Virus record (IMG/VR): IMGVR_UViG_3300037245_001394
Coordinates: 1-50,079 of that record
Reading direction: 5' to 3' (one strand)
Source of the DNA: a virus
DNA length: 50,079 nucleotides
The number at the start of each line of letters is the position of its first letter. Positions within the stretch are counted from its first letter, which is position 1. The notes beneath the pieces are model-generated. The model searched no databases. It had not been told where the DNA came from and saw nothing but the letters and a program-made list of their open reading frames with translations. Below are positions 19 through 50,027 of this stretch, in pieces. The position numbers and the translations under genes are program-made.

Positions 19-56
19 ACACACTATATCCCCGCGGGAACACCAATTTAATACAA
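19..56. repeat. Left copy of 38-bp inverted terminal repeat
   Basis: Positions 19-56 are the exact reverse complement of 49990-50027. The arm contains CCCCGCGGGG-like sequence and an AT-rich flank (TTTAATAC). Sequence outside the arms differs: 18 bases here and 52 bases at the right end. If the molecule is circular or permuted, the two arms form a palindrome around a 70-bp AT-rich spacer. Confidence 0.9.
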
Positions 57-5623: not shown

Positions 5624-7744
5624 TTATCTGTAGTCCCATCCCCTAATTTTTCGTTTACGATCCCAGGTGGTGAACGTCACCTCCGGATCAACGGGCATCG
5701 GCACGGTCAGATGACCTTCCATGTCTTCCATGATCTTCTTCAATTCCGTCACCACCCGCCACGTCAACTCCTTAATCCGTACCTCGTAGATGTTCTCGTC
5801 GTGGATGGTTAGTACGAGGTGTCCATCGACGTGGTTCTTCTTAAACCAGCAAACCGTGCGACGCATTGCACTTTTGAGAATGTCTGCTGCCGTTCCTTGG
5901 ATCGTGTAGTTGACTCCTCGGTAAGCCATGTCGCGGTCAACGTAGAGCTTTCGACCCCACGCTGTCTCGATGTAGCCACACTGACGGACGGACATCACCA
6001 CCTCCCGCTGGAATTCGTTGATCCGAGGGAACGCATCATCGTACGCCGCAATCTGCTCGATGGCCTCGTCCATCTCGCACCCGATGATGTCGCACGCCGC
6101 TTTTACACCACCACCGTACATCTTGAGGAACGTGAGCTCCTTCGCTTTGCTCTTCGTATTCTTCTTGCCGAGTGCTGCCTGTGACCTGACGATGTCCCAG
6201 CCGTACTTGTCGAGAAAATCGATGCAGATGCGGCGTACCTCCACCGAGCTAACATGGTCTGGATCCTTGACGCCGTAGTGTCTGTGTGCGGCTTCGACTT
6301 TTTCGTTACCTCCAGCGCCGTTACCATCGATCTCAAGTGACCGACTGATCTGGTCGATCGCTCGTTCGTTTCCCTTGCCACCCCAGACTCGGTTCGTAAT
6401 CTCAGTGTGGATCACGCGACCTTTACGAATCGCCTCCAGCATGTGCGGCTCTTGTGCGATCTCCGCGAAGATTCTCACTTCCATACCTCGGTAGTCCAGA
6501 CACAGCCAGGCGTATCCCGGTCGCGGCCCGAACGGCGTACGGGCGTGGATCGGTTCGTGCGAGCGCGTGGCTTCTGGGCTTGGAGGGTTCTGGAGGTTAG
6601 GCTCTGAACAGCTGTAGCGTCCCGTGCGTCCACCCAACTGACGAAAGCTCGGATGCAGGCAGCGTCCACCAGGGTTCAGCGGGTCCGGTATGGACATCTT
6701 CTTGTAGATGGCGAACCACGTAGCGTATCCCTTTGCGACTGAACGGTGTTTGAGAAGATTGTGAACCACCTCGTTATCTTCGTAGAACTGGAGCGCTTTC
6801 CACCCTACACTCGGCTCTCCCGTTGGTGTCATCTTTGTCGGCTTAATTCCAAGGTCGCCGAACAAGAGCTTCTTCATCTGCTTGGTCGAGTTGACGTTGA
6901 TCGAGGCCCACGACAGCCGCTTGACCTCGTTCATGTGGTGCGTGGCAGCCTTCTTGTATTGCTTGATTCGCATCGCCACGTTGTCTGCGCTACACGCGAC
7001 GCCGCGACTCTCCATGTCGTAGGTAACGTGGTGAAGCTCCATCTCGTTGTCGTAGATCGTCTGCATCCCGTTTGTCTCAAGGAGTCCGCGGTACATCATG
7101 AACAGGAGGAGTGTGTACTCACAGTCCATGAGACAATACTTCCGACACAGCTTCGGCCAGCACTGCCGTTGCGACACCGTCAGCAGCTTCCGATGCGTCT
7201 TGACCAGAGCGCGCAACATCCAGTAGTCAGCAGGCACGGCCGCCTTACGCTTCACGGTCCCGTCGATCTGCTCCGTCTCGTCGTACTTCAGGCTCCATCC
7301 CAGCGGACGAGCGAGTCTCCTTGCCTTGCCCGCTGCTTCCAGAATACGCTCGTGTTCCAGCGTGGGATCGTCTGCATATTTCGCGATGAGATTCTTCAGT
7401 GCGAAACTTGGCTCGTTGCTGTTGCAGACGTGGGCCATAAACATCGTGTCGTCGATGAGTCCGAGGGTGTCGATGCCGAGACCTTCGTCAAACATACGCT
7501 GGTCGAACTTCGCATTGTGGAACACCTTGCGCAGACGTGGGTTCTCCATGATCTCCCGCATTTTGCGACGATCGCGGCGGCTGACCTTCGGTTTGCGTGT
7601 GAAGGGGTCCACATCCCACTCGTAGTAAAGACGAGGACCACTCGCGAACACAAAGCCGAAGCCGAAGGCACGGTCGCCCAGCCAAGGATGAACGCCCGTT
7701 GTCTCTGTGTCAACCGCCACGATGTCATCGCACTTCGTTGTCAT
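5624..7744 (-). CDS. DNA polymerase I family with 3'-5' exonuclease
   Basis: This 706-residue enzyme replicates the phage DNA. The N-terminal proofreading domain shows Exo I (VAVDTETTG, D12 and E14), Exo II (HNAKFDQRMF) and Exo III (YCLMDCEY). The polymerase domain shows motif A as DYRGMEVR, closer to the T7-type D-x-x-G-x-E than to DYSQIELR. Motif B is around AKELTFLKMYGGG and motif C is HDE in TIHDENIYE. An insertion of about 60 residues rich in Gly, Asn and acidic residues separates A from B. There is no 5'-3' exonuclease domain. The start at 7744 overlaps the ThyX stop as ATGA. Confidence 0.92.
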   Translation of the reverse strand: MTTKCDDIVAVDTETTGVHPWLGDRAFGFGFVFASGPRLYYEWDVDPFTRKPKVSRRDRRKMREIMENPRLRKVFHNAKFDQRMFDEGLGIDTLGLIDDTMFMAHVCNSNEPSFALKNLIAKYADDPTLEHERILEAAGKARRLARPLGWSLKYDETEQIDGTVKRKAAVPADYWMLRALVKTHRKLLTVSQRQCWPKLCRKYCLMDCEYTLLLFMMYRGLLETNGMQTIYDNEMELHHVTYDMESRGVACSADNVAMRIKQYKKAATHHMNEVKRLSWASINVNSTKQMKKLLFGDLGIKPTKMTPTGEPSVGWKALQFYEDNEVVHNLLKHRSVAKGYATWFAIYKKMSIPDPLNPGGRCLHPSFRQLGGRTGRYSCSEPNLQNPPSPEATRSHEPIHARTPFGPRPGYAWLCLDYRGMEVRIFAEIAQEPHMLEAIRKGRVIHTEITNRVWGGKGNERAIDQISRSLEIDGNGAGGNEKVEAAHRHYGVKDPDHVSSVEVRRICIDFLDKYGWDIVRSQAALGKKNTKSKAKELTFLKMYGGGVKAACDIIGCEMDEAIEQIAAYDDAFPRINEFQREVVMSVRQCGYIETAWGRKLYVDRDMAYRGVNYTIQGTAADILKSAMRRTVCWFKKNHVDGHLVLTIHDENIYEVRIKELTWRVVTELKKIMEDMEGHLTVPMPVDPEVTFTTWDRKRKIRGWDYR

Positions 7745-8823
7745 CGTACGACCACTGATGGCATTTCGAAATGCCACTTCCACCGTTCGTGCATGCACGG
7801 ACGCAACAATTCGATAAACTCTGCTGACAGCCGCTTGAACTCCTGTAGCTGACGTGGTGGTATGGTCCATTCAGCGTCGTCGGTGTCGTACTTCCACAGG
7901 TCAGGAACTGTACCACCACACGCAGACAGCGTGTCTCTCGCCTCCGTGAGTGCGAGGCAGGCGTCCTTCCGGTGGTTTTTCAGGTAGAGCGGACACGGTA
8001 CTCCGACGTCGCCGGTGTTCAGCCGTGTCTGATTGTCAATCTTGTACGGACAGTCTGCGAAGCGCGAGTCCTTGATGCACGGTGGCAGCAGTGCCTGTGT
8101 GACGATTTCACCACAGCTTTCACCGACCGCCTGGACCATGTCCTTCAGAATCCACTTCCACATGCCCAGCTGTGCCAACCAGCATGACCGCTTGGAGATC
8201 AGACCCAGCAATGCTTGTAGGTTGACCGTCCATGTTATCCGGTGCGTGGCACACAGGGGCATGACTTGCCGTGCAATCTCGGGAGCAACGCCACGTCTGG
8301 TGAGTCGTTTGTAGACTTCACCACTTGAGACGACTGCGTTTTTGAAAATCTGGCGCGGCGAGATTTTGGTGTCAGCTATTTCGTCATCAAGTTCTTCTGG
8401 GATGTAGTACCTTCCTTCATCCGCGAACGTGGACAGGTCCATCGTGCGTGACGATTGTGAGAAGAATCCCGCGCTCGACAGTTCGGGGATGATGTCGATG
8501 CCCGTCCGGTCCCCGAACTTGTGACCTACTCGGTGTCGCACGATCTGCTCGCGTAGTGAGATCGGGATGTTCTCAAGTAGGAATGTGAAATGAATTGACT
8601 CAAGGATGGGTGCTCTCATGTCGATAACACCTGCGACGATGCCGTCTACGCGCTTTCTGTAAGCGTCGTCATCGTGCATTCTGTACCTTACGTCGCGTGG
8701 GTGAGCGACGGATTCACTGGCCTCCATCCGGGCGGCGATCCACTGGCAGTACATCGTCTCCACCGGCCAGCGGGTGTATGACAGCAGCGCGGCTGACGGG
8801 TTCGCGTTTTGTTCCGTCGTCAT
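7741..8823 (-). CDS. thyX: Flavin-dependent thymidylate synthase ThyX
   Basis: ThyX makes dTMP from dUMP using FAD, NADPH and methylene-tetrahydrofolate. The diagnostic region begins with REQIVRHRVGHKFGD and continues to SQSSRTMDLS, a stretched version of the RHRxxSxNExSxR signature with an insertion of about 12 residues. The second half keeps the ThyX helix pattern GVAPEIARQVMPL followed by a WTVNLQALLGL region. At 360 residues it is longer than the usual 220-260. The start at 8823 has GGAG nearby but overlaps the preceding gene by 110 bases, so a later start is possible. It supplies thymidylate for replication. Confidence 0.85.
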   Translation of the reverse strand: MTTEQNANPSAALLSYTRWPVETMYCQWIAARMEASESVAHPRDVRYRMHDDDAYRKRVDGIVAGVIDMRAPILESIHFTFLLENIPISLREQIVRHRVGHKFGDRTGIDIIPELSSAGFFSQSSRTMDLSTFADEGRYYIPEELDDEIADTKISPRQIFKNAVVSSGEVYKRLTRRGVAPEIARQVMPLCATHRITWTVNLQALLGLISKRSCWLAQLGMWKWILKDMVQAVGESCGEIVTQALLPPCIKDSRFADCPYKIDNQTRLNTGDVGVPCPLYLKNHRKDACLALTEARDTLSACGGTVPDLWKYDTDDAEWTIPPRQLQEFKRLSAEFIELLRPCMHERWKWHFEMPSVVVR

Positions 8824-9118
8824 GTCTTGGCTCCATTCGTTTGTCGAGATCGTGTGCGACGTTGACGTAGTTTAGTGCGTCAACGTAGCTATCCTCTTTT
8901 TTGTTCACGCACAGTCTGGCGTCCTTTGCGACAGACATCATCAGCGGTACGAGCCAGCTTGGAATGCGCAGGTCTCTAACAACGGTGTCTGGTTTGTTGT
9001 GTAGTCGGATCATTGACGCCCACATACGACCCGTCTCACCGTTGATGGCCTCTTGATCTCCGTAGTCAATCTTGCGCTGGTCTCGCACTTTCTCCGCATC
9101 GTCGAAGTTGATTGTCAC
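8714..9118 (-). CDS. DUF6378-like phage protein
   Basis: The product resembles a widespread small phage family with the pattern RKIDYGDQEAINGETGRMWA and, further on, KEDSYVDALNYVNVAHDL, which I know as DUF6378; its biochemical role is not established. GTG at 9118 is chosen because GGAGGAG lies eight bases upstream; the frame is open to 9154. The C-terminal 37 residues overlap the ThyX gene. It lies among nucleotide-metabolism genes. Confidence 0.65.
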   Translation of the reverse strand: MTINFDDAEKVRDQRKIDYGDQEAINGETGRMWASMIRLHNKPDTVVRDLRIPSWLVPLMMSVAKDARLCVNKKEDSYVDALNYVNVAHDLDKRMEPRHDDGTKREPVSRAAVIHPLAGGDDVLPVDRRPDGGQ

Positions 9119-9752
9119 GGAATAGCTCCTCCATGATGTTGTCCACCTCGTCAACCAAAGGACGAATGAAGTCGTAGTTGTCCACCTTGAACGTACTGTA
9201 GTACGCCGCCATGAGTCCCGCGTGCTCCATCACACCCCAATTGCCTGCGCGAAATTCGTACAGGAAGTAGGACAGCACAGAAAGGAAGTCTGCGAACTCC
9301 ACCACTCGACCCTCCAGAGTCACTGGGTCCTTGGCAGCAGACCACCGCGCTGCCAGCACGTCGCGGTAGGTCTCGTCGTCTGTCAGTGTATCGACCAGTT
9401 GACGCATTCCTTCCGCCGCGGCCACTGTGAGGTGTCTACGCAGTTCGGGTGTCGAGTGTTTGAAGTGTCGTGGAAAGTCACCCGTTTTCGCTTCCTCCAG
9501 ATCGTGCATCAATGCTTTCTCAAGAGCGCAGGTCTTGTTGATGCCCAGCGTACCGTGTGGTGCGCATCGGTTGATCCAATCGCAGATGAACATCACATAG
9601 AGAGCAACGTAGTAGCTGTGCTCTGCCACGGATTCCCGGTTCTGAACCGGGAATGTGTTGTAGCGCGTGGTGAAACGCAGGCGTCCTACGTCGCCAAGCA
9701 GTAGGTTCTTCATGTGTAGTAGGTTCTTCATGTGCGGTAGTTTTGCGGTCAT
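9066..9752 (-). CDS. HD-domain (YfbR-like) deoxynucleotide phosphohydrolase
   Basis: The 228-residue product has the HD-superfamily metal ligands: H in SVAEHSYYVALY near residue 47, HD in ALMHDLEEAKTGD near residue 84, and a later D in VVEFADFLS near residue 150. YfbR-like enzymes dephosphorylate dNMPs; phage members often act in dUMP or modified-nucleotide supply. The N-terminus carries an exact repeat, MKNLL twice, from an 18-bp duplication that gives two start-like ATGs (9734 and 9716) besides the coupled ATG at 9752. It lies between the deoxyribosyltransferase and ThyX genes, consistent with a shared pathway. Confidence 0.8.
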   Translation of the reverse strand: MTAKLPHMKNLLHMKNLLLGDVGRLRFTTRYNTFPVQNRESVAEHSYYVALYVMFICDWINRCAPHGTLGINKTCALEKALMHDLEEAKTGDFPRHFKHSTPELRRHLTVAAAEGMRQLVDTLTDDETYRDVLAARWSAAKDPVTLEGRVVEFADFLSVLSYFLYEFRAGNWGVMEHAGLMAAYYSTFKVDNYDFIRPLVDEVDNIMEELFRDNQLRRCGESARPAQD

Positions 9753-10282
9753 GTTTGTTCACCCTTCCAGTCTGACAGTTCTCGCCAGTTTAGTTCACCC
9801 ACTACGCGCGGTCGGATGAATTTCCACAATTGTTTGAGTCCGTACGCCGTACCCACCGCTGACTGCGACAGCATAAGATTTACTTTTCGATCCTGTGAGG
9901 CGCTGAACAGCGCTACGAGTGCGCCTGCCGCCCACGCCGCGCCAATTTCCCACACAGTGCCCGCGTCTGGGACGTTGATCCGTTCTTGAAAGTGACCATT
10001 CTTCATGCGCACGATGTACTCGTCTTTTGGAAGCTCCCAATCAACGATGGCAATCATGGCGTGGCTTCGTGCGACCATGTCTGCGTTTTGTTGGAACACC
10101 CTCACGGCCTCCGCAGGGTCGCTGATCGTCACCTTGGGATTGGCTTCGTACGGCCAGAAGACGGAGAATTCCGTGTTTCTGTCGAGTACGTCCTTGACCT
10201 GCCGACACAGTTCGATCTGTGCTACGTTGAAAAAGGGACCGGCCAAGTAGATTATTGGTCGCCCGTCCGTTGACTCCTTCAT
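9749..10282 (-). CDS. Nucleoside 2-deoxyribosyltransferase-like protein
   Basis: The start IIYLAGPFF at residues 10-18 is the hallmark of the nucleoside 2-deoxyribosyltransferase fold. The family's middle segment with acidic residue is seen in AMIAIVDWELPKDEY, and the GTVWEIGAAWAAG helix carries the expected catalytic Glu near residue 113. The enzyme family transfers deoxyribose between bases or hydrolyses deoxynucleoside monophosphates. With 177 residues it is of usual length. GGAG precedes the ATG at 10282, and the stop overlaps the HD gene as ATGA. Salvage or making an unusual nucleotide are both possible. Confidence 0.82.
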   Translation of the reverse strand: MKESTDGRPIIYLAGPFFNVAQIELCRQVKDVLDRNTEFSVFWPYEANPKVTISDPAEAVRVFQQNADMVARSHAMIAIVDWELPKDEYIVRMKNGHFQERINVPDAGTVWEIGAAWAAGALVALFSASQDRKVNLMLSQSAVGTAYGLKQLWKFIRPRVVGELNWRELSDWKGEQT

Positions 10283-10366: not shown

Positions 10367-11134
10367 TTAGTCGTCGTCGTCCTCTTCGACCATGAGGATC
10401 TCGAGCTTGTCCCACGCGACTTTGATCACCTCCTTGAACTTCTTGACCTTGACTTTCACAGTCTCCTTCTTTTTCTGTACGGACTTGACGACACCCTCCA
10501 CCGTCTTTCTCTTGTGCTTGAACTTGACAGTGTCGCCCTTCTCCGGGTCGCGATCGTCGTCATCATCGTCGTCCGAGTCGTCATCGTCGTCCGAGTCGTC
10601 ATCGTCATCGTCATCATCGTCGTCCGAGTCGTCATCATCGTCGTCCGAGTCGTCATCGTCATCGTCGTCGGGCTGGTCGTCCTCAAGCAGCTTGAGCAGA
10701 CGCAGATTCTGGTACTCGCCCGCTGTCTTCAACCGGATCAGCGCGGTGGGCTTGAGCTTGCACAGATCCTTGCAGACGTCCTCCAGGTCGCCGATGTCGA
10801 GCTCGTCTGCGTTGTCAACTCCGAGCTTCACCAGGTACATAAAGAACCACTTGAGGCTCTCTGGTCGCTCAATCTGAGCGTAGTCACGGGTGGACGAGCC
10901 CTTGCTCTCACCCTCGATGACCGTCCACTCTGACATCACTTGGAGATTGCCGCTACTGAGCGACTCCTGCACCTCCATCGCAGTCAGTCGCGCTTTGTAG
11001 CTGCCATCTTCCAGATCGATCAGGCCACTCTCCTTGCCTTCCTCCACGGCGGCAGCCCAAGTCTTTTGCAGCTTCTTCAGCCGTGCTGCGTAGCTCTTGT
11101 CCTTGCTTTTGCTTTTGCCTTTCTTGGCCAACAT
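10367..11134 (-). CDS. Probable ssDNA-binding protein with long acidic Asp/Ser tract
   Basis: The 255-residue protein has a lysine-rich N-terminus, a central region that resembles phage ssDNA-binding proteins of the DUF669 type (LEDGSYKARLTAMEVQES near residues 37-54), an Asp/Ser run of about 42 residues near 160-203, then a basic segment that looks like a small beta domain (GDTVKFKHKRKTVEGVVKSV). It ends in EEDDDD, the acidic tip by which SSBs recruit partners. Upstream AGGAG supports ATG at 11134. It lies beside the RecA-like ATPase and the nuclease. The SSB assignment is an inference from domain look and context. Confidence 0.65.
   Translation of the reverse strand: MLAKKGKSKSKDKSYAARLKKLQKTWAAAVEEGKESGLIDLEDGSYKARLTAMEVQESLSSGNLQVMSEWTVIEGESKGSSTRDYAQIERPESLKWFFMYLVKLGVDNADELDIGDLEDVCKDLCKLKPTALIRLKTAGEYQNLRLLKLLEDDQPDDDDDDDSDDDDDDSDDDDDDDDDDSDDDDDSDDDDDDDRDPEKGDTVKFKHKRKTVEGVVKSVQKKKETVKVKVKKFKEVIKVAWDKLEILMVEEDDDD
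10553..10674. repeat. Tandem repeat coding an Asp/Ser tract
   Basis: Blocks of GTCATCGTC with GTCCGAGTC interruptions recur with units of 9-24 bp. They encode SDDDDDD-like blocks in the ssDNA-binding protein. Length variation among relatives would be expected from slippage. Confidence 0.8.
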
Positions 11135-11171
11135 TCTACTCCTAACTGAAATTTCCAACAATCGAAAACAC

Positions 11172-11366
11172 CTACCCACTCGAGTCTGTGTCCGGCACCT
11201 CCAATTCTTCCGGTACGTCCATCGCGGCCGTCTCCGTAATAATCCTACGTCCTTCTTCTGGTCCGTGCAATACGCGCAACTCGTGGCGGAAGACCATCGT
11301 ATTGTCGAATTTCACCTGCAACCACGAGCGCGACAACTCACATCGATACGTTCCGGGTGTCATCAT
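11172..11366 (-). CDS. Hypothetical protein (64 aa)
   Basis: ATG at 11366 overlaps the stop of the RecA-like ATPase gene (ATGA), with GGAAGAAG upstream. The protein is beta-rich at the N-terminus (TYRCELSRSWLQVKFD) with an acidic C-terminus. It is not recognised; it may be an accessory of the neighbouring recombination proteins. Confidence 0.6.
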   Translation of the reverse strand: MMTPGTYRCELSRSWLQVKFDNTMVFRHELRVLHGPEEGRRIITETAAMDVPEELEVPDTDSSG

Positions 11367-41529: not shown

Positions 41530-41862
41530 TCAGTCCGTGCCTACGTCCGCCCGTGATTGCCCGTCCACGCGACGGTGAGGCGGACACATGAGACCATTGA
41601 TGGTGGAATACTCGTGCATGAAGTCGGCGTCGTCCCGCTGATCCCAGTCGTTCTGGGAGTGAAACTCGAACCTCGTAGTGGACTTCGCAAAGTCACTCTT
41701 CAGGTCGTGCCAGCCAGCGACGAGAACGGCCACAACGACGGCAATCTGGACGACGGTCGCCAGGTTGAACTGCAGCTTCCAGACGCTGAAGTGCCCGTTA
41801 GCTGACGGGTGTGGCGTCGGTTGTGTCGGTTGCGTGTTGCGCGGCGTCGCCGAGTTGGTCAT
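41530..41862 (-). CDS. Single-TM membrane protein, possible holin (110 aa)
   Basis: A polar N-terminus of 30 residues precedes a membrane span, NLATVVQIAVVVAVLVAGW near 33-51, then a charged soluble region. GAGGA lies upstream of ATG at 41862. The gene overlaps the zinc-finger gene by 65 bases. The first of a run of small membrane proteins, it is placed where a holin would be expected. Confidence 0.6.
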   Translation of the reverse strand: MTNSATPRNTQPTQPTPHPSANGHFSVWKLQFNLATVVQIAVVVAVLVAGWHDLKSDFAKSTTRFEFHSQNDWDQRDDADFMHEYSTINGLMCPPHRRVDGQSRADVGTD

Positions 41863-42421
41863 CGCTGATGATCCTCGCTTCTACGTCGATCGATCTCGTC
41901 GTCGGTCTCGTCGTCGGTCTCGTCGTTAGTTCGCTGCCGTTGCCGTTGTCTTTGCTTGTGGGCGCTTCCTGATGGAAGATGTGGAGCAGGCTGGCTTCTC
42001 GCATCGTTCCTTCCATGCGGACGAGGGACTCCTTCGGCACGAGAGGCATGATGATCTGCTTGAAAAAGCCTACTGGGTTCTTGAGAAGCTCCTTACGGAG
42101 TCCCGTTTTCAGCTTCTCTTGGCACTTCGCCTCCTTCAGCATGCTGTCCAGAACCCGCAGCGCGTCAGTCCGACCGGAGTAACGGTTGCCACCCTTGTTT
42201 CCTTCGGCGAGTGCTTTGGAGCTAGCGCGTGTGATTGTGCCGTCTGGATTGCGTTCGAGTCGCTTTGCGGCGTGGGAGGCGTGCTCGTTCTTGCCCGTTA
42301 TGCCGCTTTTCTTGTCGAGTCTGGCGTGCCAGACCTTGTGCTGGCGGAGTCCGCAGGCGGTCTCGAACTTCCGCTGGCAGCGTAGGCAGCGGTGTAGCTT
42401 TTTGATTGTCTTCTTGGCCAT
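41798..42421 (-). CDS. C2H2 zinc-finger protein, candidate small terminase subunit
   Basis: The 207-residue product begins with a classical C2H2-like finger: C12-x2-C15, then H27 and H32 (in LHRCLRCQRKFETACGLRQH and VWH). A basic helical region follows near residues 60-130, with ALAEGNKGGNRYSGRTDALR resembling the start of phage small-terminase proteins. The C-terminal tail has TTRP repeats. DNA binding is strongly suggested; the terminase role is an inference from the GN-GG motif and from its place at the head of the late genes. AGGA precedes ATG at 42421, just outside the dinucleotide-free island. Confidence 0.6.
   Translation of the reverse strand: MAKKTIKKLHRCLRCQRKFETACGLRQHKVWHARLDKKSGITGKNEHASHAAKRLERNPDGTITRASSKALAEGNKGGNRYSGRTDALRVLDSMLKEAKCQEKLKTGLRKELLKNPVGFFKQIIMPLVPKESLVRMEGTMREASLLHIFHQEAPTSKDNGNGSELTTRPTTRPTTRSIDVEARIISDDQLGDAAQHATDTTDATPVS
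41880..41931. repeat. 12-bp tandem repeat coding TTRP units
   Basis: GTCGTCGGTCTC recurs about three times and encodes TTRPTTRPTTRS in the zinc-finger protein. Confidence 0.75.
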
Positions 42422-43102
42422 CGTGGGAGTTCCTATTCGGGAGCTTCAATTTCATCTTTCGTTGCGGGAAGCGCAAGAACCCGACAGGGGGGGTCCGAAG
42501 AAACCGGGCGAAACCCCCCACCCCCAACCGGGCAAACCACCCCAACAACCGGGGGAAACCCCCCGTTCAACCGGGTGGAACGCCGCGTTGGGAACCGGGT
42601 GGTTTGCCGCGTTGTGTTTGTGGAACGTTTGTTTCGGTGGGTGCGGGCGTCGCGCCCGTGTTTCGGTTGTCCACACGTTGTCCACACGTTGTCCACAACC
42701 GGACCGTACGGACCCGAACGACCGTTCGCAACCCGAACACACCGCAACACACGGCGTACAAACGTGCGCCCGAACGTGCGCACGCCCACACGGCCCCCAC
42801 ACGGCCCCCGTTGCGTCCAAACGGTGTTTCGGTGCGTCCCCCCACCCCCAACGTCGTCACGGTCAACACACGGCCGCACGCGGGCAACCGTGACCACCCC
42901 ACCCCACGCCCCCACACACCCGTAACCGAACGCGCGTTCGGGTTTCGCCGCCACCGTCCACCCGTCCCAACGGGCGGTCAACCCGGCCGCGTCCGGCACA
43001 CGTCACCCCACGGCCCCACGCGGCCGACCACGACCACACCGCGCACGGAAACGGCCGCCCGTGTGTGGCGGCCGTCCCGTCGTCCCGTGTTGTCGTGGTC
43101 GG
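42422..43102. other. Island segment without a confident gene
   Basis: The minus strand is rich in G-runs here, and several frames are open because TAG is absent. The frame 42999-42433 is the only one that leaves the island and ends just before the ribosome site of the next gene (ending TKDEIEAPE), so it may be a real 188-residue protein, but its low-complexity middle and doubtful start do not allow a firm call. Three DnaA-like boxes lie inside at 42667-42697. Confidence 0.5.
42667..42697 (+). promoter_or_regulatory. Three tandem DnaA-like boxes
   Basis: TTGTCCACA occurs at 42667-42675, 42678-42686 and 42689-42697, exactly 11 bp apart, so all three face the same side of the helix. It equals the DnaA box form used in some GC-rich bacteria and is the TTATCCACA box with its ApT removed. 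The boxes may mark a replication origin or a DnaA titration site. Confidence 0.55.
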
Positions 43103-44014
43103 TCAACGCACGTCACCACGTTGGCGTTTCACGTCGGCCAACGCCGACACCACGGCCGCCACGGCGTCGGCCACGGCGTCGCGTGCCACACCACAAACGT
43201 CCGCGTTACGTCGGTCCGTTCCGTCCGCGCCGACGGCGTCCGCCGCCGCGTCCGCGTCCGCCAACGAAAACGCCGCGTCCGACACCGTGGCGTTTGCGGC
43301 CGTGTTCCAACGCGACGCGCACCGCCACGCGGCGTCGGCCGTCACACCGCCACGTCCAACCACGGCGGCCGCCCGTTCGGTGGCGTCCGCCAACGCGCGA
43401 ACAAACGCGACGCGCAACGTGTCCACCAACGCCCACGCGGCCGCGTGTCCGCCGTCGTCCGGCGAAAACCCGGACGCGAACACCGACACCGCGTCCAACG
43501 CCGCGCCCGCACGTTTCACGTCACACGCCAACACACACAACAAACCGACGCCGTGTTTCCGTGTTCGTTTGTCCGCGCGTGGTTTCGGCCCACCAAACGT
43601 CGGCGCGTTGCGCGTCGTCCGTTTGCGTTTGTGCGTTTTTTCCGTTTTCGGTTGTACGGTTTTCCACCACACGGCGGCCGCCGTTTCGTCGTCGGACGAC
43701 ACACCGCACGCGTCGGCAAACGCCACGGACGCCACCACGGCGTCCGTTTCGGCCGCGTTCCACACACCCGCCACGGCCGCCGCCGCGTCCACGGCGTGTG
43801 TGTCGGCCGCGTTGTAACGTTGCGCGTCGCCGTCCAACGCGGCCGCCGCGTGTCGTTTGTCGGCCACGACGTGTGCGTTTGCACACGCCCGCGCGGCCGC
43901 CGCCGCCCGTTCCCACGCCAACGCCACACGCACAAACGCGGCCGTTTCCGGTTCGACGTCGTGCGTCAACCACGTCGGCGCCCGTTCCGTTTTCGTTTTC
44001 CGTTTCGTTTTCAC
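43103..44014 (-). CDS. Island protein E: Ala-rich, Ile/Met-free protein (303 aa)
   Basis: GTG at 44014 follows the repeated leader. The protein starts with a basic MKT-type stretch, then long Ala/Val/Asp-rich helices (WERAAAAARACANAHVVADK near 34-53; DAAAAVAGVW), a basic linker near 135-160 and a second helical half. There are no Ile and no internal Met. The composition is forced by the dinucleotide rule, so resemblance to Ala-rich proteins is not evidence of family. Stable amphipathic helices and a clear start argue that it is a real gene. Function unknown. Confidence 0.6.
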   Translation of the reverse strand: MKTKRKTKTERAPTWLTHDVEPETAAFVRVALAWERAAAAARACANAHVVADKRHAAAALDGDAQRYNAADTHAVDAAAAVAGVWNAAETDAVVASVAFADACGVSSDDETAAAVWWKTVQPKTEKTHKRKRTTRNAPTFGGPKPRADKRTRKHGVGLLCVLACDVKRAGAALDAVSVFASGFSPDDGGHAAAWALVDTLRVAFVRALADATERAAAVVGRGGVTADAAWRCASRWNTAANATVSDAAFSLADADAAADAVGADGTDRRNADVCGVARDAVADAVAAVVSALADVKRQRGDVR

Positions 44015-44055
44015 GTTACACCGTCCGTTTCCGTTTGTTGTTTTTTACCCGTTAC
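44012..44055 (-). repeat. Island leader copy 6
   Basis: On the minus strand AAACGGAAACGGACGGTG precedes the GTG at 44014. This copy has lost one G of the core and has no clear hairpin. Confidence 0.65.
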
Positions 44056-44270
44056 CCGTAAAACCCCGGCCGACACCCAACCGAACAAAACGCCCGTTCG
44101 TCCCACAACGGCGACGTACCCACACCGTCCGCCCACGTTCCGTACCGAAACAACCGTCCGCGCGTGTTTTGCCCACACCACGGACACGGGTCGTTCGTCC
44201 GTTCAACCCGTCGTACCGTGTCCACCCGCGCGAACGGGTCGCGCGACAACACGACCACGTTACCCGTCAC
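44052..44270 (-). CDS. Island protein D: zinc-knuckle protein homologous to 48357-48734
   Basis: The 72-residue product ends with CPWCGQN, GRLFRYG and FCSVGC. The gene at 48357-48734, which has ordinary composition, codes CSWCGEN, DRLFRYG and FCSVVC at the same spacing, preceded in both by TVR-V. The two are clear homologues. Leu in LFRYG is TTG here but CTT there, as the missing CpT requires. GTG at 44270 overlaps the preceding stop as GTGA. This is the best proof that island frames are translated. The four Cys probably bind zinc. Confidence 0.8.
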   Translation of the reverse strand: MTGNVVVLSRDPFARVDTVRRVERTNDPCPWCGQNTRGRLFRYGTWADGVGTSPLWDERAFCSVGCRPGFYG

Positions 44271-44479
44271 GACGCACCCCGCAAACCGCGGCACACGTCC
44301 GCCAACGCCGCCGCGGCCGTGTCAAAACGCCGCCGACGTTCGGTCGCCAACAACCGCCGCGCCCGCGTCGCCGCGTCACCCGTGGCGACCGCCGCGACCG
44401 CCGCGACGTCCCGCCAAACCAACGCGACCGCGTCCGGCCGACGCCCCGTCCGTTTCGTTTTCCGTTTGTTCGTTTTCAC
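44267..44479 (-). CDS. Island protein C: basic helical protein (70 aa)
   Basis: GTG at 44479 follows a leader copy. The sequence begins with MKTNKRKTKRTGRRP and continues with Ala/Arg helices (VWRDVAAVAAVATGDAATRA). Its stop overlaps the next GTG. A small DNA-binding protein is possible from the charge; no family is recognised. Confidence 0.6.
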   Translation of the reverse strand: MKTNKRKTKRTGRRPDAVALVWRDVAAVAAVATGDAATRARRLLATERRRRFDTAAAALADVCRGLRGAS

Positions 44480-44524
44480 GTTCCACCGTCCGTTTCCCGT
44501 TTGTCGTTTTTTGCCCGTTTTTGG
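44477..44524 (-). repeat. Island leader copy 5
   Basis: On the minus strand AAACGGGAAACGGACGGTG lies four bases before the GTG of the 70-residue protein. No perfect hairpin is seen upstream in this copy, although GGGC and a run of A resemble the loop of the other copies. Confidence 0.7.
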
Positions 44525-44926
44525 TTACGCCGACCACGCGTCGGGAACCAAACGCGACAACGCGGCGCGTCCCGCGTCCGTGTCCACGTCAAAACACGCC
44601 GCGACGTGAAACGCGACCGCCCGTTCAACGTCGCCCGTTTCGTCGCGCACGTTTTCCGCCGCGTCGCGTAACCGTTCGTCGTCCGGGTTGTCCAACCCGC
44701 ACAAAAACCCGACCACGTTTTCGGCGTTTCGTTCCGCCCGTGCCACGTTGTTGCAAACCAAACCCGCGTCGCGCAACAACGCGTCGTTGCCGTACGCACC
44801 GTCGCCGTGTTCGCACAACGCGACCAAACCGGCAACCGCCGCGTCCAACGCAACGACCGCACGTTGTTGTGCGCGTCGCGCGTCCGTTCGTTTTTCGTCG
44901 TTCGTTTGTTTTCCGTTTTTTACCAC
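44525..44926 (-). CDS. Island protein B: helical protein (133 aa)
   Basis: GTG at 44926 follows a leader copy. After a polar start the protein forms helices (QQRAVVALDAAVAGLVALCE near 26-45; NVARAERNAENVVGFLCGLD near 67-86) and ends with an acidic helical part. It reads like a folded protein in spite of its restricted amino acids. No Ile or internal Met. Function unknown. Confidence 0.6.
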   Translation of the reverse strand: MVKNGKQTNDEKRTDARRAQQRAVVALDAAVAGLVALCEHGDGAYGNDALLRDAGLVCNNVARAERNAENVVGFLCGLDNPDDERLRDAAENVRDETGDVERAVAFHVAACFDVDTDAGRAALSRLVPDAWSA

Positions 44927-44971
44927 GTCACACCGTCCGTTTCCCGTTTCCACGTTTGGGGCGTTTTGCCC
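44924..44971 (-). repeat. Island leader copy 4 with GGGC-AAAAC-GCCC hairpin
   Basis: The hairpin (44971-44959 on the minus strand) is followed by the AAACGGGAAACGGACGGTG-type core and then the GTG at 44926. Confidence 0.7.
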
Positions 44972-45080
44972 GTTCCGTTTTTCGTTCCCACCACGCCCGC
45001 ACGGCCGAACGTACACCCGGCGGTCGCCAACCGCGTCGCGTTTCCGTCCACCCGTACCGGCGTACCCGTTCCGTTTTCAC
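44928..45080 (-). CDS. Possible small basic island protein (50 aa)
   Basis: GTG at 45080 overlaps the preceding stop as GTGA and the frame begins MKTE, like several other island genes. The product is Arg/Trp-rich. Its 3' third runs through the next leader and hairpin, which suggests that it could be spurious. It is kept with low confidence. Confidence 0.3.
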   Translation of the reverse strand: MKTERVRRYGWTETRRGWRPPGVRSAVRAWWERKTERAKRPKRGNGKRTV

Positions 45081-46660
45081 CGTTTGTCCACCGGCACAAA
45101 CGACACCGGCCCGTCACCGTCGTCGGCGTGGTCAACCAAACCGCACACCACGTCACACAACGACGCCCAAACCGCCCGTACCCGTTTTTCGGCCGCGCGG
45201 TTTTCCGACAACACACACGACGCGACCCACGCGGTTTTACCCGCCGTCGCCGTTTTTGTGTCCAACGCGTCAAACGCCGCCGTTGCGTCCGTGTACGTTT
45301 TGTCCGCCGTCGCCACGTCCGCCGTCGCCACGTCAACGTCCGCGTCAACGTGTGTCAAAACGTCGCGCAACGTCACCGTGTCGGACGCGCACGCCGCCAA
45401 CGCCACGGCGACACACCGCGCGTCGTGGGCGCGTTTGTCCGCCGCACGCGCACGCAACGCCAACGCCGTGTTCGGTCGTTCGGACCACGGACAAACCGCG
45501 TCGTTGGCGTGGTGTGACGCGACACACGCACGGTCCGTCGTCCACGCCAACCGTTGCAACACGTTCCGACCACGGACGTCGAAAAACGCGCCCGAACACG
45601 CCGCCGCCGCCGTTTCCGCGTCCGCCGCCGCGTTTTCGGCCAACACGGTCGCGCGTACGGCCACGTTGTCAACGGTCGGCGGCGTGTCGTGTTCGTCCAC
45701 CGGTACACCCACCACGTCGGCCGCGTTGTTCACGGTCACACGGTTGTTTGCGACGACCAACGCGTACACCGCGTCCACACGCCGCGACGCGTTCCGTACC
45801 GCGTTGCGGGCGTCGTACCGTTTCGGGTACGTTCCCGCGTACACGCCCGCGAACGCGTCCGTGTGTTGTTCGGCCGCGTCACAACACCGCGTGGCGTTCC
45901 GGCGTGCCGTCAACACGTTGGCGTACGCCGTCGTAAACCGTTCGCGGTTTGACGGTGACGTGTCGGACGGGTCCAACAACCCCGCACAAACCGCCGTCGT
46001 CAACGCCACGGTGTCAAACGCGCACGCCGCGTCACACAACGCGACAACAACGGCAACGTGGGCCGGTCCGTCGTCCGGTTCACCGTCCGGCCCGGCGGTT
46101 GGACCGAAACCACCACCCGGCGCACGCGGCGACCCGTCCACGTTGCGCGGCGTGTCGTCGTCGTCCGGTGGTTCGTCCGCCCGTTCGGACGCGTCGTCCG
46201 CCGTCACGTCCAACGGCCCGTTGTCGTCGTCCAACGCCAACAACGCGTCGGCCACGGCGTCGTCGTGTTCGTCCGACGCGTCCGCGCAACCGTCCGCCAA
46301 CCGTTCCGGTGCGGGTGCGTCGGCGTCACAACCACAACCACAACGACACAAACCCACGTCCGCCCGTTCGGCGTCCGCGTTCGGCGCGGCGTTACACGCG
46401 ACGTGCAAACACGCCGCACACACGCAACGCACGGCGTGTCCGTCCGTGTCACCGTCAAACGCACACGCGCCGCCCGTGCCGTGTGCGTCGCAACCACACG
46501 GACACACGCCGCCGTCGTCCGTGTGTGCGCCACAACCACACGGACACCACGGCGCGTCACCAAACGCGGCCGCCCGTTCGTCCGACGTTTGGAAAACCGC
46601 ACGCCCGCGCGGTTTCGCCAACGGTTTCCCGTCGTCCGTTTTTCCGTTTTCCGTTTCCAC
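45077..46660 (-). CDS. Island protein A: large Cys-rich, Ile/Met-free protein (527 aa)
   Basis: GTG at 46660 follows a leader copy. Residues 35-130 are Cys/Gly/Asp-rich with repeated CPCGC-type motifs (APWCPCGCGAH, VCPCGCDAH, LCRCGCGCD), likely metal-binding. An acidic linker (DDAVADALLALDDDNG, then DEPPDDDD) follows. The last 300 residues are helical (AYANVLTARRNATRCC; ADVATADKTYTDATAAFDAL). No Ile or internal Met occurs. The frame is open to 46735 but the leader supports the later start. Function unknown; it is the largest gene of the island. Confidence 0.6.
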   Translation of the reverse strand: METENGKTDDGKPLAKPRGRAVFQTSDERAAAFGDAPWCPCGCGAHTDDGGVCPCGCDAHGTGGACAFDGDTDGHAVRCVCAACLHVACNAAPNADAERADVGLCRCGCGCDADAPAPERLADGCADASDEHDDAVADALLALDDDNGPLDVTADDASERADEPPDDDDTPRNVDGSPRAPGGGFGPTAGPDGEPDDGPAHVAVVVALCDAACAFDTVALTTAVCAGLLDPSDTSPSNRERFTTAYANVLTARRNATRCCDAAEQHTDAFAGVYAGTYPKRYDARNAVRNASRRVDAVYALVVANNRVTVNNAADVVGVPVDEHDTPPTVDNVAVRATVLAENAAADAETAAAACSGAFFDVRGRNVLQRLAWTTDRACVASHHANDAVCPWSERPNTALALRARAADKRAHDARCVAVALAACASDTVTLRDVLTHVDADVDVATADVATADKTYTDATAAFDALDTKTATAGKTAWVASCVLSENRAAEKRVRAVWASLCDVVCGLVDHADDGDGPVSFVPVDKR

Positions 46661-46694
46661 GTTTTCACCGTTTCCCGTTGTGGGCGTTTCGCCC
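46658..46694 (-). repeat. Island leader copy 3 with GGGCG-AAA-CGCCC hairpin
   Basis: The hairpin at 46694-46682 is a perfect 5-bp stem with an AAA loop, followed by CAACGGGAAACGGTG and the GTG at 46660. The core is shortened compared with other copies. Confidence 0.7.
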
Positions 46695-46706
46695 GTTTTC
46701 GTTTCG

Positions 46707-46826
46707 TCACACCCCAAACACGTCCCGCCAAACAAACACGACGTGCGCCAAAACGTACGCCGTCACCACAACGACCAACACCACGACCGACCAAACCAAC
46801 GCCACACGTCCGTTTTCCGTTTTCAC
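46707..46826 (-). CDS. Island single-TM protein (39 aa)
   Basis: GTG at 46826 follows a full leader copy and the gene ends with TGA at 46707. The product begins MKTENGR and contains one membrane span made almost only of Val, Leu and Ala (VALVWSVVVLVVVVTAYVLA). Within the dinucleotide rule Ile is impossible, so Val-rich spans are the expected way to build a membrane helix. That such a helix is kept argues for selection on the protein. Confidence 0.65.
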   Translation of the reverse strand: MKTENGRVALVWSVVVLVVVVTAYVLAHVVFVWRDVFGV

Positions 46827-46862
46827 GTTTCACCGTCCGTTTCCCGTTTGGGGTTTTCACCC
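46824..46862 (-). repeat. Island leader copy 2 with GGGT-GAAA-ACCC hairpin
   Basis: The hairpin (46862-46851) includes the stop codon of the upstream island gene. The full core AAACGGGAAACGGACGGTG follows and then the GTG at 46826. Confidence 0.7.
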
Positions 46863-47645
46863 GGTTTTCGTTTCGTTCACCCGTGCCACGGCCGCGTCCG
46901 CACGTTTCACGGCGTCCCGTGCCGTGGTTTGTGCGAACGCCGTCGCGTTCGTTGCGCCGTCGCGTGCGGCCAACGCGTCAAACGCCGCGGTGACGCGGTC
47001 CAACACGGCGTGCGCGTCGCGCGCAAAAACCACCGTTGAAACGGCGTTGCCGTCGTTCGCAAACCGTTCGGCGTCGTCCGCACACCGTTTGACAACGCGC
47101 GCGTCAACGTCCGCGGCGACCGTGCGGAAACGCGGTCCGACGTCCACACCACCGAAACCGCGTGGGTCCGCCGTCGCCACCCCACCCGCGTACCGCAACG
47201 CACCGACCACACCCGCAACCGCGCGCGGGTCGCCACACGTCACGACCGAAAACACGGCGTCACGCGCACGACAAAACGCACCCGACGCGCGTTCGGTCGC
47301 GCGTTCCGACGCAACCGACGCGTCCGTTTGTGCACACGACCACACGTTACGACGTTCGTTCCGTCGCCGTTGCGCGTTGTGTTCGGCGACGTCCGCCGTG
47401 TCCGTCCAAACCAAACACCGCGCCAACGCCAACGCGGCACCCGTCACGTCCCCGCGCCCCAACGCCAACCGCACACCGCGCGACCGTACCAACGCCGCAC
47501 GCGACGCCGCCGCGACGGCGTTTTCCCACGCGTGAACCAACGCGTCCGCCACGCCGCAACCGTGGTAACGTTCGTCCGTGTCCCACGCGTTGTCCCACGC
47601 CGTCCGCGCCGCCCGTTCCGTTGTGTTCCCGTTTTTGTTTCCCAC
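46857..47645 (-). CDS. First island protein: helical, Ile/Met-free (262 aa)
   Basis: GTG at 47645 follows a full leader copy. The protein is built of helices with Trp and His residues (ARTAWDNAWDTDERYHGCG near 14-32; ALVHAWENAVAAASRAALV) and a middle with CGDPRAVAGVVGALRYAGG. The codons are limited by the island rule and no Ile or internal Met is present. The frame upstream to 47891 is open only because stops are rare. It is the promoter-proximal gene of the island, downstream of the 17-bp repeats. Function unknown. Confidence 0.6.
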   Translation of the reverse strand: MGNKNGNTTERAARTAWDNAWDTDERYHGCGVADALVHAWENAVAAASRAALVRSRGVRLALGRGDVTGAALALARCLVWTDTADVAEHNAQRRRNERRNVWSCAQTDASVASERATERASGAFCRARDAVFSVVTCGDPRAVAGVVGALRYAGGVATADPRGFGGVDVGPRFRTVAADVDARVVKRCADDAERFANDGNAVSTVVFARDAHAVLDRVTAAFDALAARDGATNATAFAQTTARDAVKRADAAVARVNETKTG

Positions 47646-47682
47646 GTTCCACCGTCCGTTTCCCGTTTGGGGTCGTTTGACC
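47643..47682 (-). repeat. Island leader copy 1 with GGTC-AAAC-GACC hairpin
   Basis: The hairpin (47682-47671) has a stem different from the other copies but the same A-rich loop, then the full core and the GTG at 47645. Confidence 0.7.
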
Positions 47683-48105
47683 GGTTTTTTTTTCGTCCAC
47701 ACAAACCGTACAACGGGAACACGGGAACGCCAACGAAAAACCGTTTTTTTTTTGTGTTTTTTTCGGGAGGGTTTGGCACGCAACGTGCAACGAACACCGG
47801 CGACCACCCCACACGACAACACGGGAAAACACAACAACGGAAAACCACCGACCCCACACGTCCGAAACCGCACAACCGACCACACCCACACCGCACCGTT
47901 TCGGACCCCTCAGGTCGGTTTCCGGCCGGTTTCGTCGTCGTTTTTTCCCCACCGAAAAACCAGGACCCGCAATAAAGACGAGCTTGTAACAAAGACGAGC
48001 TTGTAACAAAGACGTGATCGTAACAAAGACGTGACGAAAACAAAAATCGCCTCCATTCGACCACAAAGCCAAACGAAGACGACAGCCCACCACAAAGTCA
48101 GCCGG
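47646..48105. other. Non-coding island boundary region
   Basis: I see no convincing gene. The stretch holds leader copy 1, long T-runs at 47685-47763 on the plus strand, the first ordinary dinucleotides after 47768, and the 17-bp repeats at 47974-48036. It is the likely control region for the island genes. Confidence 0.6.
47974..48036. repeat. 17-bp tandem repeats (iteron-like)
   Basis: AAAGACGAGCTTGTAAC occurs at 47974-47990 and 47991-48007, a variant AAAGACGTGATCGTAAC at 48008-48024, and a partial unit at 48025-48036. The core GTAACAAAG recurs at 49412-49420 and 49480-49488. Such arrays bind replication initiators or repressors. Confidence 0.8.
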
Positions 48106-49989: not shown

Positions 49990-50027
49990 TTGTATTAAAT
50001 TGGTGTTCCCGCGGGGATATAGTGTGT
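49990..50027. repeat. Right copy of 38-bp inverted terminal repeat
   Basis: Exact reverse complement of 19-56. Beyond it lie 52 bases, first a GGGGGCGCGCGCG run and then AT-rich DNA (GGATATATTGTATTATTTC). Confidence 0.9.

Follow-up and report, generated by a model that had tools for sequence, protein, structure and literature searches.

Why should one block of a single DNA molecule obey a rule on neighbouring bases that the DNA on either side of it does not? The question is raised by a tailed-phage contig of 50,079 nucleotides (IMG/VR virus record IMGVR_UViG_3300037245_001394, positions 1 to 50,079; this whole stretch is called the window below), in which an island of about 5.4 kb lacks the dinucleotides AG, CT and AT. 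An earlier note, written from the letters alone, had drawn attention to the gap. We propose, with a probability of roughly 40%, that the island resembles a mobile element and has been kept clear of the target sites of a DNA enzyme with two-base specificity, an enzyme that it meets in a state that the flanks do not share.

The missing dinucleotides

Direct counts gave AG = 0, CT = 0 and AT = 0 across 42500-47768, a maximal free run of 5,269 bp, and thus bore out the earlier note, which had given zero for 42501-47767. The flanks use the three pairs freely, as had also been said: there they make up 15.7% of the steps, a rate at which about 826 forbidden pairs would be expected in the run. With steps assumed to be independent, the probability of finding none is about 10 to the power of −390 (log10 P ~ −390), which rules out chance or low complexity as the origin of the gap. 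Elsewhere in the window the longest run free of AG, CT and AT is 51 bp (the run directly adjoining the island excluded), and among all loci compared the lowest forbidden-pair count is 72 per kb (the window's own record excluded). The zero counts inside the limits first drawn for the island stand, but the constrained unit is wider, from about 42490 to a right edge at 47909, past a single AG at 47768; it is listed in Table 1. The inverted repeats at the ends, the arrangement of six genes, the adapted ribosome-binding site and the DnaA-box cluster, all treated below, had likewise escaped the earlier note.

The three pairs collapse into a single rule for double-stranded DNA: the base 3' of the A of an A:T pair has to be A or C. 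Restated, A never stands before G or T, the reverse complement holds as well, and CpG is the sole step from an amino to a keto base (MpK). We call DNA without AG, AT and CT AK-free, and the target ApK (A followed by a keto base) or, equivalently, MpT. The absolute rule is one of two bases, because all trinucleotides that it permits are present in the island, as are 120 of the 121 permitted tetranucleotides; the missing one is TTAA (0 vs 3.2 expected). The forbidden pairs are absent from coding and non-coding DNA alike, and also across codon borders, which speaks against a constraint on codons or mRNA. The closure of the missing set under reverse complement and its absence from non-coding DNA were already reported and are confirmed here. 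That the rule acts on double-stranded DNA is the natural reading of both, although a rule on RNA would keep a 5% chance of showing the closure (28 of the 560 sets of three pairs).

The edges of the element

Where the rule begins and ends, there is a 23-nt imperfect inverted repeat with the core GGGGTCCGAA. Its two copies match at 19 of 23 positions, a value reached by none of 1,500 random pairs of 40 x 40-nt edges. Beside the core stands at each side a CAGG, which, as we read the letters, is a candidate target duplication of 4 bp; the letters outside it, GAACCCGA and TCGGTTTC, are themselves near-palindromic. Because inverted repeats and subterminal repeats mark its edges, the island looks like a discrete, insertion-like unit, and it is for this that we use the term element. 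Just outside its right end and upstream of its genes, at 47971-48038, lie four 17-bp direct repeats of the AACAAAGACGAGCTTGT type, which are iteron-like.

Genes adapted to the rule

Six minus-strand frames (g1 to g6) with GTG starts were found in the element. They have one common leader, AAACGGGAAACGGACGGTGNNACGTG, with a degenerate copy before g3; the ribosome-binding leader common to the genes is GGACGGTGNNACGTG. We read GGACGGTG as the Shine-Dalgarno sequence GGAGGTG in which an added C breaks up the forbidden AG; its spacing to the GTG start is normal. Most flank genes have sites of the AG-containing GGAG/AGGA type and mostly ATG starts. Three-base periodicity is strong in the four longest genes (g1, g3, g4 and g6), and all six genes are apparently real. 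Their proteins avoid Ile and internal Met by necessity and retain Leu at 5% via TTG, whereas simple base conversion predicts about 1% Leu. The usage of codons, starts and leaders shows that both the genes and their ribosome-binding sites have adapted to the rule. The long frames of the plus strand were not accepted as genes; they are a by-product of the few stop codons.

No convincing match to the proteins of the element was obtained in Pfam, PHROGs, PADLOC, PDB sequences or annotated phages and plasmids, where these were searched. Paralogy among g1, g3 and g6 was unconvincing after shuffling. The structure model of g3 (predicted local distance difference test score, pLDDT, of 39) is not interpretable, and the models of g3 and g4 were too poor to be used for a structure search.

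Table 1. Features of the constrained element in window coordinates
Feature	Position	Strand	Basis and remarks
Constrained element, 5,420 bp	42490..47909		Direct counts; 2 forbidden pairs in total (AG 42499, AG 47768)
Further 141 bp without AG, CT or AT	47769..47909		Direct counts; outside the interval of the earlier note
Left inverted repeat GAACCCGACAGGGGGGGTCCGAA, core GGGGTCCGAA	42477..42499	+	19/23 vs right copy
Right inverted repeat GAAACCGACCTGAGGGGTCCGAA (minus-strand letters)	47900..47922	-	19/23 vs left copy
Candidate target-site duplication CAGG, left copy	42485..42488		Sequence reading; weak, 4 bp only
Candidate target-site duplication CAGG, right copy	47911..47914		Sequence reading; weak, 4 bp only
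Subterminal repeats of ~22 nt (AACCGGG..), ~5 copies, inside left end	42502..42614	+	
Three tandem TTGTCCACA (DnaA-box sequence of high-GC bacteria)	42666..42697 (starts 42667, 42678, 42689)	+	11-bp spacing
Leader ACGGACGGTGNNACGTG, first copy	47643..47659	-	Other copies start at 46840, 44940, 44493, 44028; variant before g3
g1, 262 amino acids, GTG start	46857..47645	-	Leader, periodicity; no Pfam, PHROGs, PADLOC or phage match
g2, 39 amino acids, one likely membrane helix (VKTENGRVALVWSVVVLVVVVTAYVLAHVVFVWRDVFGV), built on Val	46707..46826	-	Leader; helix read from sequence
g3, 527 amino acids, first third Cys-rich (CPCGC-type), rest Ala-rich	45077..46660	-	Periodicity; no homolog
g4, 133 amino acids, amphipathic-helix signal z = 2.7	44525..44926	-	Model pLDDT 50
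g5, 70 amino acids	44267..44479	-	Leader
g6, 303 amino acids	43103..44014	-	Leader; periodicity G1 57% / C2 39%; no homolog

Selection or mutation

The composition of the element was compared, as L1 distance, with that of a flank Markov chain in which the three pairs are forbidden and with that of flank sequence whose forbidden pairs had been converted by A>C or A>G. Over the whole element the forbidden chain fits best of these three (0.125 vs 0.285 for A>C and 0.381 for A>G); for the 1,267 bases of non-coding DNA the distances are 0.138 vs 0.425 and 0.328, respectively. On this poor fit, coding and non-coding, the idea that ordinary DNA was simply converted by A>C or by A>G was rejected. Random repair of the forbidden pairs fits as well as the forbidden chain (0.126), and therefore a mutator working in one direction is disfavoured, other mutational routes not. 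Random repair alone would not give six framed genes with matching leaders; the adapted leader and the retained Leu favour a long-term exclusion with selection.

Origin-like sites and signs of a separate history

The motif TTGTCCACA, of which three tandem copies lie near the left end (Table 1), is the high-affinity DnaA box of Streptomyces coelicolor and Mycobacterium tuberculosis (PMC4285127). It occurs nowhere else in the window, and the TTATCCACA form of the box is impossible under the rule. No initiator gene was recognized in the element. The GC content of the element is 66% vs about 57% in the flanks. Relative to codon-preserving shuffles the island under-uses TCGA (2 sites vs 7.2 expected; these stand at window positions 43953 and 45579) and GTCGAC (0 vs 3.6 expected), while the flank TCGA ratio of 0.97 is normal. 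The under-use hints, if modestly, at a different history of restriction. The ends of the block, its composition, its leader and its DnaA boxes all support a separate life.

The search for relatives

Relatives of the island were sought by sequence and not by the dinucleotide property; that none was found therefore does not mean that the class is absent. In IMG/VR the exact leader had no match and a looser form of it six, of which none was AK-free; the inverted-repeat pattern had two matches, neither AK-free, the tandem DnaA boxes had 48, again none AK-free, and for g3 no match could be confirmed. The leader matched six times in genome_contigs, never in AK-free DNA. Neither a homolog nor an AK-free stretch came from a scan of 84,980 genomes and from blastn/tblastn searches of phages and plasmids, and no relative was found for the flank gene at 41798-42421. 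A literature search likewise gave no precedent for the island, in agreement with the earlier note, whose author knew of no described phage or mobile element with this property; this now extends over the literature, phages, plasmids and IMG/VR sequences searched.

The phage around the element

The flanking contig is that of a tailed phage with a minor-tail/tape-measure protein, an HK97-type capsid protein, a terminase, a primase and a DpoZ-related family A polymerase. The phage also has ThyX, an HD protein (best PHROG: dATP triphosphohydrolase), a nucleoside deoxyribosyltransferase, a MazG-like pyrophosphatase, a uracil-DNA glycosylase and an N6/N4 methyltransferase. When tested as a DpoZ/DatZ-type polymerase, the polymerase was related but scored below the NCBIfam cut-off (156 vs 500 bits). 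PurZ (PF00709) had no match in the window. At 5624-10282 the DpoZ-related polymerase, the dATPase-like HD protein, the deoxyribosyltransferase and ThyX stand together without PurZ, a gene set that may point to some other kind of base-modified genome.

The element occupies an intergenic region with minus-strand genes on both flanks, in line with one phage genome. Two fragments resemble the phage: L001 shares 7 kb at the terminase region with 79% identity, and L004 has a polymerase that is 37% identical; neither extends to the position of the island. L004, a distant relative, appears to retain HD-, ThyX- and polymerase-like genes (read by eye, the polymerase excepted). A 112-nt AK-free run in L004 is a simple GC repeat, a GC-only array of the GGGGCGGC type at 326-437 of this phage contig of 48% GC and a potential G-quadruplex region. 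The window encodes at 10367-11179 a protein with a long poly-Asp tract specified by tandem GTC/ATC repeats, which is resembled by a Lys/Glu/Asp-rich stretch of L004 (5813-6850). Near both contig ends (window 19-56 and 49990-50027) there is a perfect 38-bp inverted repeat, which suggests either that the genome is linear and ends in inverted repeats or that the junction forms a hairpin.

How could the rule have arisen?

What needs to be explained is why a single molecule contains one block that keeps the rule between neighbours that do not. The block could have had a separate life, it could be exempt from a base modification of the flanks, or a mutator could have been targeted to it. We place most weight on the separate life. 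The proposal starts from what is observed directly, namely the boundaries, the genes, the leaders and the absence of the three pairs. A unit of about 5.42 kb with inverted-repeat ends, six genes and a DnaA-box cluster, now within a tailed-phage genome, would for a long time have been under a near-absolute exclusion of A:T pairs with A before G or T. The selecting agent may be a two-base-specific enzyme for double-stranded DNA, cleaving or base-modifying, with ApK = MpT as its target, and it would act on the element in a state foreign to the flanks, for instance on an excised or separately replicating form or in a previous host.

Several points weigh against this proposal. No enzyme is known to us whose target is two bases of this kind, and, because element and flanks are one molecule, neither of them would escape an enzyme active in this cell. 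Among the genes of the element no transposase, recombinase, nuclease or replication protein was recognizable in the Pfam, PHROGs and PADLOC scans made, and no second copy or relative of the element turned up in the phage, plasmid, genome and IMG/VR searches. The target-site duplication of only 4 bp is weak, and the TCGA signal is modest.

The restriction of the rule to one stretch of a single molecule would also be accounted for if phage or host modified A or T in ApK/MpT throughout the genome and the island, having lost all targets, stayed usable by the DnaA and RNA polymerase of the host. The DnaA-box-like sites within the island fit such an exempt zone, as do the DpoZ-related polymerase, the dATPase-like HD protein, the deoxyribosyltransferase, ThyX, the MazG-like pyrophosphatase and the N6/N4 methyltransferase of the phage. 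The thymidine hypermodification of TpG/TpC reported in phages M6, ViI and W-14 (PMC6449724) is likewise dinucleotide-directed, with a two-base target containing T, and is a precedent for an enzyme that reads one neighbour of T; however, T before C or G is the target there (3' neighbour), whereas the island rule concerns T after A or C (5' neighbour). PurZ is absent, no hypermodification enzyme was recognized among the flank genes scanned, and for an origin or promoters an exemption of a few hundred bases would do, where the island covers 5.4 kb with reading frames. We regard an exempt zone as unlikely. Somewhat less likely again is a local context-specific mutator, one of the causes that the earlier note had offered, that erased every ApK while the genes persisted by selection among the remainder. 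Such an action would be self-erasing, so that hundreds of sites could be lost without each loss being lethal, and the sharp limits at the element ends recall repeat-induced point mutation (RIP) of fungi, a dinucleotide-targeted (CpA) change confined to repeated elements. But RIP has been described as confined to fungi and as inactivating genes (PMC2621366), which it does by one transition, whereas the island is in a phage and its six frames are open, with leaders. Nor is there the predicted enrichment of product dinucleotides; the misfit of one-direction A>G or A>C conversion, non-coding DNA included, weakens the simple form of the suggestion, and the leader (GGA-C-GGTG) resembles an insertion rather than a substitution.

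A shade less probable still is that synthetic, recoded, contaminant or otherwise artefactual DNA was joined to the phage contig. The rule is unnaturally clean, being equivalent to saying that in the order A<C<G<T no letter is followed by one more than a single step higher, the searches made yielded no homologs, and the analysis covered contig sequence. On the other side, the island is joined at its two edges, with their matched inverted repeats, to a single phage genome, there are two exceptions to the rule, which extends beyond the obvious edge, and the 50,079-base sequence is catalogued as a virus record. Ribosome-binding-site spacing, DnaA boxes, codon periodicity and the membrane peptide look natural, and no design purpose is apparent. 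Clearly less probable than any of these is a constraint on RNA, in which an endoribonuclease would cut the minus-strand transcript at ApG, ApU and CpU. This would exclude the same three pairs, and the element could be a single transcription unit; but the closure under reverse complement would be a coincidence of the size given above, and the terminal non-coding ends follow the rule too.

Known systems and significance

With its inverted ends, discrete edges and possible short target duplication the element is like transposons and insertion sequences bounded by terminal inverted repeats, from which it differs in having no recognizable transposase or recombinase and no second copy found. Avoidance of short recognition sites as an anti-restriction strategy of double-stranded DNA phages offers another likeness; the known cases, however, mostly concern orthodox type II sites and whole-genome counts, and the island two-base steps in one block of 5.4 kb. 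Mutagenesis by diversity-generating retroelements is centred on adenines, but their changes are confined to a short variable region, with no dinucleotide excluded; no reverse transcriptase family was found among the window proteins scanned (part of the open reading frames of the window).

We know of no natural multi-kilobase coding DNA without a whole dinucleotide class, nor did we find one described. It is quite possible, at somewhat less than even odds, that the element evolved its whole sequence, i.e., genes, ribosome sites and origin-like region, without an A:T pair having a keto base 3' of the A, under a new two-base-specific modifying or destroying system. If true, this would be, to our knowledge, the first replicating sequence without three of the sixteen dinucleotides. 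If real, the island is a sign either of an enzyme whose DNA target is two bases long or of a state of phage DNA that is local and has a chemistry of its own, and it is a natural test of how genes adapt without Ile, internal Met, CTN-Leu, ATG starts and the canonical Shine-Dalgarno sequence.

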